Positions 10,607 to 55,031 of a DNA stretch of 64,000 bases are shown in pieces; position 1 is the stretch's first letter; every line of letters begins with the position of its first letter. This DNA comes from Spinellus fusiger (lineage: Eukaryota > Mucoromycota > Mucoromycetes > Mucorales > Phycomycetaceae): NCBI GenBank assembly GCA_025094145.1, contig JALLLS010000004.1, positions 124,001 through 188,000 on the forward strand, given 5' to 3'. A program made the translations under genes and the position numbers. The notes under the pieces are model-generated. The model did no database searches and was not told where the DNA came from. It worked only from the letters and a program-made list of their open reading frames with translations.

Positions 10607-13600
10607 ATGCTTTATCACCAGTACCGTGCGTCTGGAGAGCTTCCTACAGATAAGCATTGGCCAGAAGTGGTTCCTATGAATGCCAATCGAGAAGCACTGC
10701 CTGTGAGTTACCTGATGAGTTACCTAATAAGTGGCAGGATGTTGATTAAGCATAGTCCATGCAGCATATTAGTCAGGATGACCCAGCTGCTTTTGCTTAT
10801 TTTCAGAATGAGCTAATGACACACCTTAACACGCCATGGCAACACTCTATGGATCAACGAGTTATGTATCCTTCTATTATGGTTCCACCACAGTCACCTA
10901 CTTTGGCTAGTTACTATTTTGAAGGGTCATCTTCGTGGGTTAGTCAGTACTATGATCCAAAACGACGTCTTGTGGCTAGTCCCCACCCTGAGTTCCATAA
11001 GCCAATAGTACAGAGGCCTATGGAAACCTACTCAAGACTAGCAGTAAGACAAGCACAAGGCCAGGGTCAGACACAGGTCCTCGGTCAAGACCAAGGCCAA
11101 GCACTGGGACAAGCACAGGTACTGAACCAGGTACAGGTATTGAACCAGGTACAGGTGTTAGGACAGGCTCAGGCTCAAGCACAGGTTCAGGCTCAAGTAC
11201 AGGCTCAAGTACAGGCACAGGCTCAGGCTCAATTGCAAGCTCAGTTGCAGGCACAGGCTCAAGCTCAGGCACGAGCTCAGTTACAAGCTCAGTTGCAGGC
11301 ACAATTACAGGCACAAGCTCAAGCTCAAGCTCAAGTGCAGGCTCAAGTGCAAGTACATGCACAGCAACATGCACAGCAACATGCACAGCAACATGCACAT
11401 GCACATGCACATGCACATCAACAACAACAGCAGCAGCAGCAAGTGCAATTGAGTAGACGCAACACACAAACAAACCAAACGATACCCTTACCCTTACCTT
11501 TTACAATGATCAATTCAACAACTGGATCTCATCAAAACGGAGCACAAGCTTACCCCTCAGAGATAACTGAAGAATGGCGTGAAAATATGCTACAATACTG
11601 CCACACCCTTTATAATAGCTCACCACAAGACCCTTCGCTTCTAACATTACTTCATACGTTGCACCAGGCCTATCCTACACATCTACCAACACTGTTACTA
11701 CTAGCATGCATGTATTATACATTCAAAGACTACCATTCTTCTCTCCGCTACAACCATCTCATCCTCAAGTACGATGCCAACTATGTCGAAGCCATGAGCA
11801 ATATTGGAACCACCCTGCGCAGCATGGGACGTACAAGTGATGCTGAGCGATGGTGGTATCAGGCTGTCAAACTAAGACCAGCGTACTGGGATGCAGTAGA
11901 AAACTTAGTCGGTGTCTTATGCTCTACTCTTCCTGCATTGGAAAACAAAGAGAAACCAGGCCCACGATACCAAGAAGCATTGGTCGTTTGTGACTTTGTT
12001 GAACACTACTTCTTCCCTACACCCACAGACATCCTACTTAAGCCACGTCATCTGCCTGTTCACCAAATACCACGCCTACAGAACTTATTCTATGCCAAAG
12101 GAAACCTAAAGTATGCACTGGGAGATGTCATAGGCGCCAGACGTGATTATGAAAAAGGACTAGAATTAGTATTTGGTATGAATCTGTTGGGACTAGCTAA
12201 TCATATTGCCATTGCCTGTGGATCAACCCAAGCCCTGGAAGCAAAGCGATATAACAAACTCCCCAACATCAATACTCTCCCTTTGATCTTATTACAACCT
12301 GACCAAGCAACCCGCATCTTTTCACTTGCTTTCGGTGCCAATGGATTACCAGAAATGGGAGGAGGACAAGATTCTTCTGTACATGCTCACCAAACAACAT
12401 CAACCCTCTTGCTGACACTGGCCAAGCTCTTTCAAGATATCATGAATCCTTCTTCACCTGCTCTGATGGCAGCAGCAGAAACACAGGCACCTACATTATC
12501 TCTTCTTCTTCCTCTCTACTACCTCAGTCTTGCTCTTCATCCCAGTCCCTCCACTGCTAATAACCTTGGCATTATCCTTAGCAATATTTCAGGAGTCCTT
12601 GTCACTCAGTCTGTTATGCTTTCAGGTGCACAGCCTATCACTGGCACGATGCTAGCCATGCAGTACTACATGTATGGTCTACAGCTGGATCCCCGCCATC
12701 CTCATCTCTATACCAACCTCGGCTCTCTTCTCAAAGACATGGGGCATCTGAATGAGGCTGTGTCCATGTATGAAAAGGCAGTGGAATACAATCCTCGATT
12801 TGATGTGGCGTTGGCTAATCTTGGTAATGCCATTAAAGACATGGGCCGTGTGCAAGACTCGGTACAGTGGTACAGACGTGCGGTAGAGGTCAACCCAAAC
12901 TTTGTTGATGCCATTTGTGGACTTGTAAACTCATTGGGAGGAGTGTGTGATTGGAGAGGAAGAGGAGGCGTTGGTAACGAAGCCACGGTTGATACATTCG
13001 GCAATTACTTTGCAAGCACGCACAACCCACAAGCAAGAACAGGCTGGATTGGGCGTGTTGTGGAGATTGTTGAGAAGCAGCTTGAAGAAGGAGCAGTGTG
13101 GGGCAAGGGCATTCTTAGACAACGAGGACTCAAGGGGAAAACAATTGGAGAAGAACTCACTGAATGTCTTTCTTCTACTCAGTCTTCTCTTAATGTCTGG
13201 GAAGCTCGACTACTGTTCTTTACCCAGTCTTCACAGAGCAAGAAGAATGAGGGAGGTTGGCTCATTAGGGTGATTGAGCGTACAATGCGTCGAATGCAAT
13301 ACCATTGGTACACTGATGTTTATGGCATGGTGCTCCAGACACAGACACCTGTGGGATCCATTACAGGTCCTTTCAGTGGTGTTCAAAAGTATACCCGACC
13401 ACGGATTCCTTCTTGTTTACAGGCACCTCCTGTGCCTACAGTACTGCCTTTTCATACATTTACCTACCCTCTCAGTGCACGCCAAGTACGGCTTATATCT
13501 CATAGAAATGCATTAAGAATATCTCATGGCGTACTGTCTTCTACATGGCTTCCTGATCATGTCTATCCACCTCCCCCACCTCCCTCACCACGACTCAAGA

Positions 13601-14949
13601 TTGGCTATGTCTCTTCTGACTTTAACAATCACCCCCTTGCCCACCTTATGCAGTCTGTATTTGGATTCCACAATACACTGCAGTACGAGATCATATGCTA
13701 TGCCACGACTCCCAGCGACAACTCACCCTACCGCCAGAAGATTGAGCAAGAATCAGAGCACTTTTTAAATGTATCTTCATGGTCCAACCAGCAGATTGTA
13801 GAGCGTATTGTAGCCGATGGTATCCATGTGCTTGTGAATCTGAATGGCTATACCAAAGGAGCACGCAATGAAATCTTTGCTGCTAGACCAAGTCCTGTCC
13901 AGTGTTCCTTCATGGGATTTGCTGGTACATTAGGAGGTGGTTGGTGTGATTGGATTATTGCTGATCCTATTGTATGTCCTCCTGAAATGGTAAGCTGTGA
14001 AGTATGGCGTTCACGTCCTATAGATCACAACAATGGCAATCTTGAGGGCGACATTGATCCTGAAGAAGACACGGAGGACTTTGTCTATACTGAAAAGTTC
14101 ATCTATATGCCTCACTCGTATTTTGTCAATGACCATAAACAAGGATTTCGTGAGCCAATCACTCATCCTACGTATGATGCATGGGCCCATGAGGAAGAAC
14201 AACGGTGGAGTATGCGGCGTCAAGTATTTCCCTCTTTACCTGATGATACTGTGATTTTTGCCAACTTTAACCAGTTGTATAAACTAGAGCCGTCAACCTT
14301 TCATCTGTGGCTGCGTATCCTAAAACGTGTGCCGAATGCTGTTCTGTGGCTGTTGCGCTTTCCACCTGCAGGAGAACAACATCTGATACAATGGGCTACT
14401 GACTGGGCAGGGCTTCAGGTCGCACGTCGTGTCTTGTTTACTGATGTGGCCCCCAAGCACATCCACATTCACCGTGGACGTATAGCAGATATCTTTCTTG
14501 ACACGCCTGAATGCAATGCCCATACAACAGCAGCGGATATTCTATGGTCGGGTACACCTATCATTACGTTTCCCAAGCATGGGCATAAAATGTGTTCTCG
14601 TGTTGGAGCGAGCATTGCCATGGCCACTGGGTTTGGAGATGAAATGGTAGTGTCGAGTGAGGAGCAATATGAAGCCCGTGCGGTGACATTGGCACAAACC
14701 CTTACGTATACGTATACCTCAGTGCAAGGTGAAGTACAGCGACGTGGCCATGGACCATTAATGCAACTTCGGAAACGCCTGTTTGAGACCCGTGAAGAAA
14801 GTCGATTGTTTGATACGCAGAGATGGACTAGGAATCTCGAACAAGGCTACATGGAAGCATGGCGTCGGTGGATCACTGGCAAGGAGTTTGAAGATCTGAC
14901 CTGTATCCACTCTGGTTGTATTTGGGTAGTGGATCCTGACGATGCTTAA
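10607..14949 (+). CDS. OGT: O-GlcNAc transferase (TPR + GT41)
   Basis: Two exons (10607-10702, 10765-14949) join in phase 0 to give 1,426 residues. After a short leader comes a Q/A/H-rich tract (about residues 125-260), then TPR units between about residues 300 and 780, e.g. YVEAMSNIGTTLRSMGRTSD and HLYTNLGSLLKDMGHLNEAV. The catalytic half has GT41 hallmarks: IGYVSSDFNNHPLAHLMQSV, HVLVNLNGYTKGARNEIFA, FMGFAGTLGGGWCDWIIAD, FANFNQLYKLEPSTFHLW (holding the UDP-contacting Lys) and a C-terminal DTPECNAHTTAADILWSGTP. The enzyme moves GlcNAc from UDP-GlcNAc to Ser/Thr of cytosolic and nuclear proteins. The catalytic core is contiguous and undamaged. A second start at 10759 is possible, but the upstream exon has a good GTGAGT donor and keeps the frame. 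The length exceeds animal OGT mainly through the N-terminal tract and an insertion at about residues 1,110-1,160 that is rich in acidic residues. Confidence 0.95.
11046..11440 (+). repeat. Imperfect CAGGCTCAAG-type repeat coding for Gln-Ala tract
   Basis: About 400 bp of degenerate hexamer-like repeats inside OGT encode alternating Gln-Ala, then Gln-His, then poly-Gln. The antisense strand stays open over the same span only because the repeat lacks stop triplets in that frame. Confidence 0.85.
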
Positions 14950-15457: not shown

Positions 15458-17239
15458 TCAAGTTGTATTGTCCATCACTGGTTTTTTACACAGAATTACT
15501 ACATCGCCTTGTCGTCTCCAGTCATCATGAAAATGACTATTGAAGAAACGCGCGCATTCTGAATAGGGGAGGGCGCTTCCAATAGATTGGTAGAGCGTAT
15601 CAAACATCATCCAATGGGTGGGCCATTCCTCAAGGGTAGAAAGATAAGAGCCAGGATGCTTGTAGAATTCGTCTGCTTCATCCACATCCCCCACATTCAA
15701 AGGAGGTTCACACGTCAAAAAACGCAGAGAAGTACGAGGAGAGTGTACAACAGACTGGTGTGGGGTAGAGTGGCATGGCATCAAGATACCTACAGACAGT
15801 GGGTGTGGTTGAGTATGCGCTTCCTGTCGTATCCACAGCATAGCATCTACCACACCCCGTTGATGCCACTGAGTCAAATAGAATGCCATTGGGATTTGTG
15901 TAATGCACAGTCCCACCACTACTCTTCTTCGCCATGGATAAGGTAGGTGCTGTAGTCCAGCAGCAGCAAAGAGAAGGACAAGAGGAAAAATAGGAAACAG
16001 AAACCGGAATTCCTTATGAGACAGAAGACTGAATACAGCTACAATCCATACAATTAAGTAGCCCAGGGGTCTGATGCGGGGATGGAGAGATGCTTGAGTG
16101 TAGTAGCCCAACAGAGACAGAGGGAGAAATGTGGTAGCAATGGCAGGCAATCCCTGGGTCAAATACCAGTGCCATGGATGTACGCCATAGAACAGAGAGA
16201 TAGAAGCTAGTACATTGATACGGAAGAAGGCAAGGGGTGTGATGACAGGCTGTGAAAAGACAGCAAGCCAGGAGCCAGTGTAGATGCGAGTGTCTAGCAG
16301 TGTGTTGATGGCCACACAGAGGGATCTTGAGGGGAGGAGTGGGTTAGAAACACAAAGGTGTGGTGAGGCTTTACTTACACGACCACCATCGCATCTCTGG
16401 CAATGGTCCATCGATAGCTGCTTTGGTACAACAAATAAACACCAAGGAATAACCATACAAGAGCATTGGTGGGTCGAATCAAGCAAGCAAGAGAAGCCCA
16501 GCAGAGACCTTTGCGTAAAGAACCCTGAGATAGTGGAGAAGTATACGTCAAGGGCCAATAGTTGAGGGCAATCAGTGTCAGAGTAGCCTCAGTACAGTTA
16601 GAGAGTGTTCTTCCTGCCATAAACCCATTGTACCAAGAACATAGGGTGACAAATAGCTACAAGAATGAATATTGGTAGTTTCTTGTTTTCTTTTTTTTCT
16701 TTTTTCATAGCTTACTATCCATGGTGCTATGGTGGGTCCAAATAGACGTATAGCCAGTGTGTACAGATTATAGTCTGTTACTGCTGCCATGAGTCCTTGG
16801 AATAGCCTTGGAGCCACTACCTATGGATGCGGATGAGGATGCGGATGAGAACACATAGAGAGAGAGAGAGAGAGTGTGTGTGTGTGTGTGGATATATGCT
16901 GAGCACTACATTACCAAAGCCATTGTGTTATCCATAGACAACCACTGGAGCACTTTATAAACACCAGCAAATAGAAGAGGATGAATGTAACTGCGGATGT
17001 GCTCCTTCCACTCCCATGTTAAATAGCCATACGTAATATATCAAGTCAAGGATGTTTAGTCTTTTCCTTTCTTTTCATTGTATGCATAAAAAAGAAGAAA
17101 AAGGATATCCAAAGACCATACGGTGGGCCACTTCCTGTGCTTGCCAATACTCGTCTGGATTATCATACGTGCGTATCCAGTAGGCATTCAGTAGACGCAC
17201 CACTACTAAGGCACTCAACACCTTAAGCTGAGTGGACAT
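15458..17239 (-). CDS. GPI10: GPI mannosyltransferase 3 (PIG-B/Gpi10, GT22)
   Basis: The start at 17239 opens MSTQLKVLSALVVVRLLNAY, then the GT22 hallmark NPDEYWQAQEVAHRMVF. Exon 2 gives YGYLTWEWKEHIRSYIHPLL. Later exons give FQGLMAAVTDYNLY, RTLSNCTEATLTLIALNYWP, IRPTNALVWLFLG, GVHPWHWYLTQGLPA and LLSHKEFRFLFPIFPL, which is the second GT22 motif. The tail ends near a conserved HFHDDWRRQGDVVIL. Multiple hydrophobic helices fit an ER membrane enzyme that adds the third mannose of the GPI anchor from dolichol-phosphate-mannose. Intron 1 (17033-17108) is a U12-type AT-AC intron and is required for VFG-YGYL continuity. The gene is head to head with the pinin gene, with 80 bp between start codons. 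Confidence 0.93.
17033..17108 (-). other. U12-type (minor spliceosome) AT-AC intron in GPI10
   Basis: Read on the minus strand, the intron starts ATATCCTTTTTC, matching the U12 5' splice site consensus, and ends ATATATTAC. A branch site TCCTTGAC lies with its adenosine 13 nt before the 3' end. Joining GTCTTTGG to GTATGGC restores the frame and the conserved VFGYGYLTWEW. No GT-AG or GC-AG alternative in this interval gives this protein. Confidence 0.9.
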
Positions 17240-22144: not shown

Positions 22145-23137
22145 GATGAAGAATAGATGTAATATAAGATATATAAAAAGAGAAAAGAAAAAAGAAAAAA
22201 GAAAAAAGAAAAAGAAAATAATAAAATAATAAAATAATAAAATAATAAATAATAAAATAGATCCACACTGGCTTGAACCAACAGCTCAATCAGCAGAAAG
22301 AAAAGACTAAATCATGTGACTATAAGACAGTGACCCGTACTAAGAATCCACTGTCGATTTTCATTTCTCTTTGGAATGGCAGGGAAGTAATAGCAAGCTA
22401 CTCTTCCCTTAAGCAAAAATTGTGGTCTCGAGACACCCCTAGAGGCGTTCGCAGCAAAGCCAACCATCGCTGTGCAATGACAGTCGGCCCCGCTGTGCAT
22501 CCAGTCTTAATGATCACCAGATGCACGACCCAGGTAAGTATGAGTTGTTCAGGATGCAATTTGGGCCTGTATTTATACCTTTTGAAAAGATATTCCCTCC
22601 GATCAAAAGACACTAAAGACAGTCACTTTGAGTTTGAATATAGAGTTTGATCATGAGGTCTCCATAGAAAAGACAAAAGGTGTCACTCTTTAGCAGTCGT
22701 TTTCAAGGAGAGTCACGGTGGGACAGAAGGAGTGGGAAGGAGAGGCTCCCAGTCCAAAAGATACGATCCACTGTTATCAGATCACTATAGAGAAAATAGG
22801 AGTTCCATGACATAACTGAGAATATGTCTCTCACAAAGAGATGGCTTGTACATGGCAAAAAGATACTCTTATGTTCTTATGAAAGGAACATATAAAAGAT
22901 ATAAAAGTGTATATTTTATCATCATAACTTAATAAATGCAAACTATTTCTTATTATTATTATATTTTATTATAATACTAGTGAATAACTTAGTTTTTTTT
23001 AATAGATACAAGGCTATTGAAGCAGGGACAACCATGAGAATATGAGTAGAAATAATAATAGTAAATAATAGTAAACATAATGAGAATGAAAATAAGAAGA
23101 ATGAAAATACAATAGACAAGAGATGCTGATAGCCACT
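22145..23137. other. Intergenic region between HADH and CCH1
   Basis: About 1 kb. An A-rich/AATAA simple repeat occupies 22185-22262. A 378-bp open stretch at 22273-22650 has no recognisable protein features and is probably not coding. The remainder is AT-rich. Confidence 0.5.
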
Positions 23138-53738: not shown

Positions 53739-55031
53739 CAGTCACACAAAATTAGAAAGTATACGATTTTCATTTTTTGAAATCCTGAAAAAAAAACATG
53801 CTTTACGGATATAAATGTTACGACCTCAAAACACATACTAATGACTTCAAATTCAATAAAAAGTTAGTTTAACCTATTGTCTATAGTAATATATATATAA
53901 AGGTTTTTATTTAATATTTTTGGGCCGCCTTTGGCATCAATAACTGCCTAGCAGCGATCCTTCATTGAGCCAACTAAACGTTCGGCAAGATCGATGTGGA
54001 TATTTCTCCAAGCTTCTTCGAAAGCTGTCTTGAGCTCACTAATTTTATTAACACCGACTCTCTTGTCATTGATAAGCTTATCAAGACAGCTCCAGAGATG
54101 TTCAATGGGGTTGAGATCAGGACTTTGGGCAGGCTATTAATCAAAGCGCCTGATTGCATGTGTGTTTTTCCACCATGTTGTATAGCCACCTGTATGGAAT
54201 CTAGCCCTATCTTCTTGGAATATGAAGTCCTTATCCTCCTTCTCATTCAATTCAATGAACCATGGCAGAAATTTTCCTGCCAAAATGTTGACATATACGT
54301 CCTGATTTATACTACTATCAATAAAGACCAAAGGCCCAAATCCACCCGCCCAGAAACAGCTCCAGATCATTATGCTGCCTTTCCCCCATTTGGTTGTAGG
54401 TATGATATGAGTAGCCTTATACCTCTCTCCTATCTTTCGAATCACTCTGGTTCCTCCCTGGTAACCCTTTACTTCAAACCGCGACTCATCAGACCATACG
54501 ACGCGTCTCCAGTCCTCAGAAGTCCAATTGACCCGTTCCTTCACCCAAAGAAGTAGGAACCAAACCCAATCTGATGTATATATCTGATGAATGTTGCTCT
54601 CCAGATGATTATCTCATAAGCTTTAAATTCAAAATTTATGAAGTTATAGGAGGCAAATGGGTTGCCTCTTAGAATGGCCTCAGGTCGTCTGAGATCTCTC
54701 TCGTTAAGTTTTTTTGGTGCACCAGAACTAGTATTTGGTAGAGATGTACCAGTAGTCATGATTCTACTAATGATCTTTTGGACAGTGGACTTGCTAATGC
54801 CAACGACCTTTGAAATGCTACCCATGGAGTATTTTTATTTTTTTAAGCCAGTAAACACCCCAGTACTCTCTTTCTTCAAGCTTATGATAAACTATTGAGT
54901 TTATAGTTGAAGATTCTGTGTTTGACATTTGAGATTGCTTAATGAAATGTGATTCTGTGGTAAAAAAAAAAGAAGAATCATGTTTAAAAATTTATAAATT
55001 AGGTCGTATACTTTCTAATTTTGCGTGACTG
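53739..55031 (-). mobile_element. Tc1/mariner element A (inactive)
   Basis: 1,293 bp flanked by 28-bp terminal inverted repeats (53739-53766 and 55004-55031) that differ at one position; both start CAGTCAC. A TA lies next to the left end (53737-53738). The right flank is TT, so the target duplication seems mutated. It encodes a broken minus-strand transposase. Confidence 0.92.
53948..54825 (-). pseudogene. Tc1/mariner transposase, frameshifted
   Basis: The N-terminal helix-turn-helix part reads MGSISKVVGISKSTVQKIIS and APKKLNERDLRRPEAILRGN. The catalytic part begins VNWTSEDWRRVVWSDESRFE (first Asp), then GKGSIMIWSCFWAGGFGPLV, DFIFQEDRARFHTG (second Asp) and SPDLNPIEHLWSCLDKLIND (third acidic position), ending LVGSMKDRC. 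There is a shift or deletion between the HTH part and the catalytic part at about 54544, and a double stop just before PAQSPDLNP, so it is not functional. Confidence 0.9.

Follow-up and report, generated by a model that had tools for sequence, protein, structure and literature searches.

The GPI10 (PIG-B) gene of Spinellus fusiger (Mucorales, Phycomycetaceae) contains a U12-type AT-AC intron that is almost certainly removed by a minor spliceosome retained in this fungus. The gene lies on the minus strand of the 64,000-nucleotide stretch of DNA analysed (hereafter the window), which is part of contig C132. Exon 1 (17109..17239), with its ATG at 17239, is followed by the AT-AC intron (intron 1, 17033..17108; 76 nt, phase 2) and by exon 2 (16915..17032), which starts GTATGG (YGYLTWEW). 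The remaining introns are all GT-AG: intron 2 (16821..16914, 94 nt), intron 3 (16657..16715, 59 nt) and intron 4 (16326..16378, 53 nt), separating exon 3 (16716..16820), exon 4 (16379..16656) and exon 5 (15458..16325), the last of which reaches the stop codon. Removal of the AT-AC intron and the three GT-AG introns gives a protein of 499 residues, all of them (499/499) identical to the GPI mannosyltransferase 3 deposited for S. fusiger (P0001), which was found by protein search. Judging by this identity, the AT-AC intron is already present in the deposited model, although this is not proof of splicing. The spliced protein matches the Pfam family PF03901 (Glyco_transf_22) at 1.4e-97, which agrees with the GT22 membership proposed in the original prediction, and its nearest named relatives are annotated as GPI mannosyltransferase 3 (611 relatives, P0001 being the best); a comparison by sequence with solved structures rendered no match. 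Elsewhere in the window, inspection by eye revealed an open frame of 1397 aa on the plus strand (10756-14949) resembling an O-GlcNAc transferase, with TPR repeats, a catalytic part and, close to its start, an extended Q/A-rich region.

Intron 1 is of the U12 type by every sequence feature examined. The full U12 signature that had been proposed for the minus strand was read directly from the letters, with the same coordinates and the same branch position. The 5′ splice site ATATCCTTT (17100..17108) matches the U12 donor RTATCCTT, the branch site TCCTTGAC (17045..17052) follows the U12 branch motif TCCTTRAC and places the branch adenosine at 17046, 13 nt before the intron end, and the 3′ splice site is the AC at 17033..17034. 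The order on the minus strand is ...GTCTTTGG, then the intron ATATCCTTTTTC...AAACATCCTTGACTTGATATATTAC, then GTATGGCTATTTAACATGGGAGTGG; with a longer stretch of its 3′-end included, the intron reads ATATCCTTTTTC...CATCCTTGACTTGATATATTAC (17108..17033). Its excision produces the phase-2 junction VFG/YGYLTWEW, as had been anticipated, while without it the reading frame meets a stop. When every possible intron 30 nt or longer in the junction region was enumerated, five registers restored MVFGYGYLTWEW, their ends being AT-AC, TA-CG, AT-GT, TC-TA and CC-AT. AT-AC is the only recognised pair of ends among these five, and none of them is GT-AG.

The assembly (38.08 Mb) was then searched for components of the minor spliceosome, with 14 genomes serving as controls. 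Matches were obtained for U11 (C150:156325-156479; 71.8 bits, Rfam cut-off 39) and U6atac (C5:29916-30048; 66.2 bits, cut-off 33). A U12 candidate (C187:2225-2417, minus strand) scored 44.8 bits (E 2.1e-6), which is under the Rfam cut-off of 53, and its alignment covers the whole model and keeps the branch-binding stretch intact. None of the 14 control genomes matched any of these three models. In the alignments, U11 starts AAAAAGGGC, U6atac contains GAAAGGAGAGAA and U12 contains GAGUAAGGAUAA. The U4atac model found no match in the genome, nor in any control genome, and a pattern built from the Spinellus U6atac, whose stretches AAGGACGG and UUUGGCA are those a U4atac partner would pair with, matched nowhere in the genome either. 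Among the proteins specific to the U11/U12 particle, the C-terminal RRM of U11/U12-65K (RNPC3/RBM40) was found at C187:369969-370277 on the minus strand (43% identity, 4.6e-23), the same search giving five weaker RRM matches elsewhere in the genome (2.3e-8 to 6.4e-4). The solved chains nearest this candidate are those of RBM40 (4.4e-22 and 5.1e-22), followed by FLJ11016 (1.3e-15) and RBM41 (2.4e-14), and an RRM-like stretch can be recognised by eye upstream of the C-terminal RRM, within the same locus. Genome searches for PDCD7 (U11-59K; PF16021), the U11-48K zinc finger (PF05253) and CCDC84/CENATAC (PF14968) yielded no match; among the controls, a single archaeon matched the U11-48K model, and none matched the other two. 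All of these negatives are weak, since no control genome matched for U4atac, PDCD7 or CCDC84 and the exon-by-exon search is insensitive. The retained machinery that the original prediction had deduced from the intron is thus borne out as regards U11, U6atac, 65K and, with a score below the cut-off, U12; U4atac was not found, and of the four specific proteins sought only 65K was recovered.

The pairing scheme of the minor snRNAs with the donor and branch sites is general knowledge, and the Spinellus sequences fit it. The UCCUUU of the donor is complementary to AAAGGA in U6atac and, with one wobble, to AAAGGG in U11, and the branch UCCUUGAC is complementary to GUAAGGA in U12 around one bulged purine. 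U11 and subsequently U6atac would therefore be expected to pair with the donor ATATCCTTT, and U12 GUAAGGA would pair with TCCTTGAC, bulging the branch adenosine; splicing would then join GG to GTATGG, keeping the phase-2 frame VFG/YGYLTWEW. The three snRNAs are presumably expressed.

An alternative is decay or alteration of the minor machinery in the Spinellus lineage, for instance through loss or strong change of U4atac, with the intron spliced out inefficiently or in some other way. The fact that U4atac escaped both the Rfam model and the pattern derived from U6atac would suit this idea, as would the divergence of U12, whose score is under the cut-off; in addition, U4atac likewise went undetected in a Lichtheimia genome paper (PMC4133162). 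However, U11 and U6atac score far above their cut-offs and the introns retain full motifs, the same paper gives one U4atac copy in the other basal fungi (PMC4133162), and a U4atac model that matches none of the control genomes has not demonstrated its sensitivity. We consider decay improbable, and removal of the intron by a retained minor spliceosome by far the better account.

Introns of the same kind were sought throughout the genome, as the original prediction had recommended. The strict pattern RTATCCTTN{25,55}TCCTTRACN{8,16}AC matched 11 times, and its backward control not once. Inspection by eye showed eight of these matches to be introns; the other three (L006, L007 and L012, on contigs C110, C117 and C152) were rejected as introns, being the same stretch of RPL12 coding sequence, and its presence at three loci suggests that there are probably three RPL12 genes. 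The looser pattern RTATCCTTTN{25,55}CCTTRAC matched 23 times (backward control, 0), and ten of these matches are introns that join a recognisable gene (L017, L018, L020, L026, L028, L030-L033 and L036). Nine introns were thus accepted besides that of GPI10, and the resulting ten, which represent a lower bound, comprise nine AT-AC introns (GPI10 included) and one GT-AG intron. Pfam matches extend across the junction for the AT-AC introns of a DNA-PKcs-like gene (1.9e-15), URB1 (Npa1, 8.1e-17), VPS11 (2.4e-15) and CLP1 (5.4e-29), and also for that of a TRAPPC11-like gene (Foie-gras_1, 2.1e-4), where the 21.6 bits obtained are just below the cut-off of 23.3. In the AT-AC intron of an inositol polyphosphate kinase gene (Pfam, 1.1e-18) the match starts just past the junction; here the frame is kept by an AC two bases upstream of the one in the pattern (L013/L033), and the intron is 78 nt long. 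The AT-AC introns of kinesin-5 and TBC1D20 were recognised by eye, neither having a Pfam match of its own above the cut-off, and so was the GT-AG intron, which lies in a PPP6R-like gene (L028), a fragment without a Pfam match. Because of this last example, the notion that the minor introns of Spinellus are exclusively AT-AC was dropped. A pattern ending in AG gave two matches, each overlapping an AT-AC intron already counted. The branch adenosine lies 9-16 nt from the intron end in nine of the ten accepted introns, and 25 nt from it in the CLP1 intron (L036, C183:131209 onward).

Several matches were not accepted. The joined frames were unrecognisable for one possible GT-AG intron (L034) and two possible AT-AC introns (L027 and L039), and L019, L021, L035 and L037 were also left out of the ten. 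Five others (L022-L025 and L038) belong to a dispersed repeat found on contigs C115 and C192, the aligned copies of which are 87-92% alike over 1.2-2 kb; this repeat contains a ATATCCTTT...CCTTGAC pair, whether accidental or inherited. L029 resembles the repeat but failed to align with it, and was not accepted. By eye, a Tc1/mariner-like frame adjoins the repeat in L023; a Tc1/mariner transposase-like fragment was also seen in the window itself (54137-54613, minus strand).

A second alternative is that the major (U2) spliceosome removes the GPI10 intron despite its AT-AC ends. Major spliceosomes are able to remove some AT-AC introns, the other three introns of GPI10 are GT-AG, and a U1 snRNA gene lies inside the window (22381-22541, minus strand; 99.8 bits, cut-off 69.5), where it is the sole Rfam match above the gathering threshold. 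Nevertheless, the donor ATATCCTTT and the branch site are both full U12 motifs, they are common to nine other introns, and the genome harbours minor snRNAs with fitting pairing stretches, which makes this explanation very unlikely. As to the motifs arising by chance, the donor RTATCCTTT, allowing up to one mismatch, occurs 48 times in the window (37.5 expected), a count attained by 4 of 100 shuffles; being this close to chance, the donor motif by itself was dropped as evidence for a U12 intron. The window contains a single instance of donor, branch and AC end in combination, and likewise one of the looser combination of donor and branch; across 150 first-order Markov windows the two patterns turned up 0 times and once, respectively. 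The idea that there is no intron at all, only a chance match or an assembly error, can draw on the near-chance frequency of the donor but is hardly credible, given that the frame encounters a stop if the intron is left in but yields the family motif once it is removed, that none of the 150 Markov windows contains the full pattern, and that the spliced reading agrees residue for residue with the deposited protein.

To place the GPI10 intron among related genes, 296 distinct PIG-B relatives were collected from three protein searches (120 listed in each, of 611, 393 and 1095, respectively) and sorted by sequence patterns. The junction was read through in 249, a result that is neutral as to whether an intron lies there; 17 lacked the N-terminus, and 30 were disrupted after DEYWQ. 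Among these 30 are two false C-terminal matches (P0024 and P0118) as well as a few variants of the ordinary sort. Among the 296 listed, the junction reads Y-G, as in GPI10, in 225, and Y-P in 11. The Y-P models comprise five from fungi (P0028, P0035, P0037, P0063 and P0084) and six from vertebrates (P0138, P0170, P0178, P0180, P0182 and P0188). The fungi are Umbelopsis nana, U. vinacea, Rhizophagus irregularis, R. clarus and the chytrid Phlyctochytrium arcticum; the vertebrates are Rattus norvegicus, Sparus aurata, Anas platyrhynchos, Hydrobates tethys, Upupa epops and Pyxicephalus adspersus. In all 11 the Y-P is preceded by F-[G/K]. In phase 2, an exon ending in GG or AA followed by RTATCC translates as exactly G-Y-P or K-Y-P, so these models look as though they run into the donor of an intron. 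For R. irregularis, P0035 reads VFGYPKLFYLVYCFGYLTWEW while a second model, P0058, reads VFGYGYLTWEW at the same place. In Fennellomyces, P0019 contains WFLDILFF, as TGGTTTTTGGATATCCTTTTTT reads in the shifted frame, suggesting that the first base of the intron is an A. The P. blakesleeanus model P0005 is without the YGYLTWEW stretch, and other disrupted models, such as those of Gekko (P0099), a bat (P0145) and a sturgeon (P0195), show no Y-P. Ordinary phase-2 donors such as GTAAGT and GTGAGT produce stop codons, which biases the kind of read-through that is visible, and in any given species the Y-P may derive from a major-type donor reading GTATCC.

The simplest reading, we infer, would be a single U12-type intron position common to chytrids, Mucoromycota, Glomeromycota and vertebrates. 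The position of GPI10 intron 1 is probably old, since the PIG-B models of six vertebrates and of five fungi besides Spinellus show F-[G/K]-Y-P at this junction. As far as these protein models can tell, the PIG-B position appears to bear a U12-type donor in chytrids, Glomeromycota, Umbelopsidales, Mucorales and vertebrates, and, being apparently so widespread, it could mark the retention or loss of minor introns. A U12-type intron here would also account for several public GPI10/PIGB models erring exactly at this point. Spinellus itself can now be counted among the fungi that have minor splicing, the present results providing ten U12-type introns in recognisable genes as well as candidate genes for one specific protein and three of the four minor snRNAs. 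The excess of AT-AC introns (nine of ten) is possibly unusual, but it calls for an unbiased count because the strict pattern and its narrow length range may favour AT-AC. We offer only tentatively, and regard as somewhat doubtful, the proposal that the Spinellus minor spliceosome is almost confined to AT-AC introns (nine versus one GT-AG, the two kinds being about equal in Phycomyces), the GPI10 intron, at a position common to chytrids, Glomeromycota and vertebrates, being one of the few ancient ones to have survived. Less likely still is its bolder form, in which the machine relies on a U4atac too altered for the models to recognise.

The GPI10 intron is new, but its kind is already known in related Mucorales. 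The literature searches gave nothing linking PIGB with minor introns, the minor spliceosome or U12 intron retention (databases and supplements, which may list PIGB, being outside their scope), and in a looser search PIGB was unmentioned among the matches listed; the papers naming Spinellus fusiger dealt, by their titles, with other subjects. The original view that minor introns are absent from most fungi agrees with what is reported for Ascomycota and Basidiomycota. It does not extend to early-diverging fungi, minor introns being published for Rhizopus, Phycomyces, Rhizophagus and Basidiobolus (PMC2846911 and PMC10639083). A minor machinery was to be expected in Spinellus, which belongs with Phycomyces to the Phycomycetaceae. 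In the cited part of PMC10639083, Rhizophagus irregularis has 205 minor introns and Basidiobolus meristosporus 249, far more than the ten of Spinellus, which are a lower bound; like them, Spinellus is an early-diverging fungus with minor introns. All four minor snRNAs are given there for Rhizophagus, whereas U4atac was not found in Spinellus. For Lichtheimia, minor snRNAs are reported in PMC4133162, U4atac not among them and U12 being unusual. The two Rhizophagus GPI10 models, P0035 and P0058, differ as if the same intron had been read through in one of them. The same source puts AT-AC introns at about 26% of human minor introns and at 196 of 253 (77%) in Blastocystis, whose minor introns, like the ten accepted in Spinellus, are mostly AT-AC; unlike Spinellus, Blastocystis is a stramenopile, and its minor introns have a mean length of just under 42 bp and are 49% phase 0 (PMC10639083). 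The closest counterparts are found in the family of Spinellus, with Phycomyces, and in the order Mucorales, with Rhizopus. Table 2 of PMC2846911, which is based on ESTs, lists 8-9 AT-AC and 8-12 GT-AG minor introns for Phycomyces blakesleeanus, and 1 AT-AC and 2-3 GT-AG for Rhizopus oryzae. Phycomyces thus has both kinds by ESTs, in contrast to the nine AT-AC and one GT-AG found in Spinellus by strict pattern; what Spinellus has in common with Phycomyces and Rhizopus, as these are described in the cited part of that paper, is AT-AC introns with U12 donor and branch motifs, together with minor snRNAs (PMC2846911).
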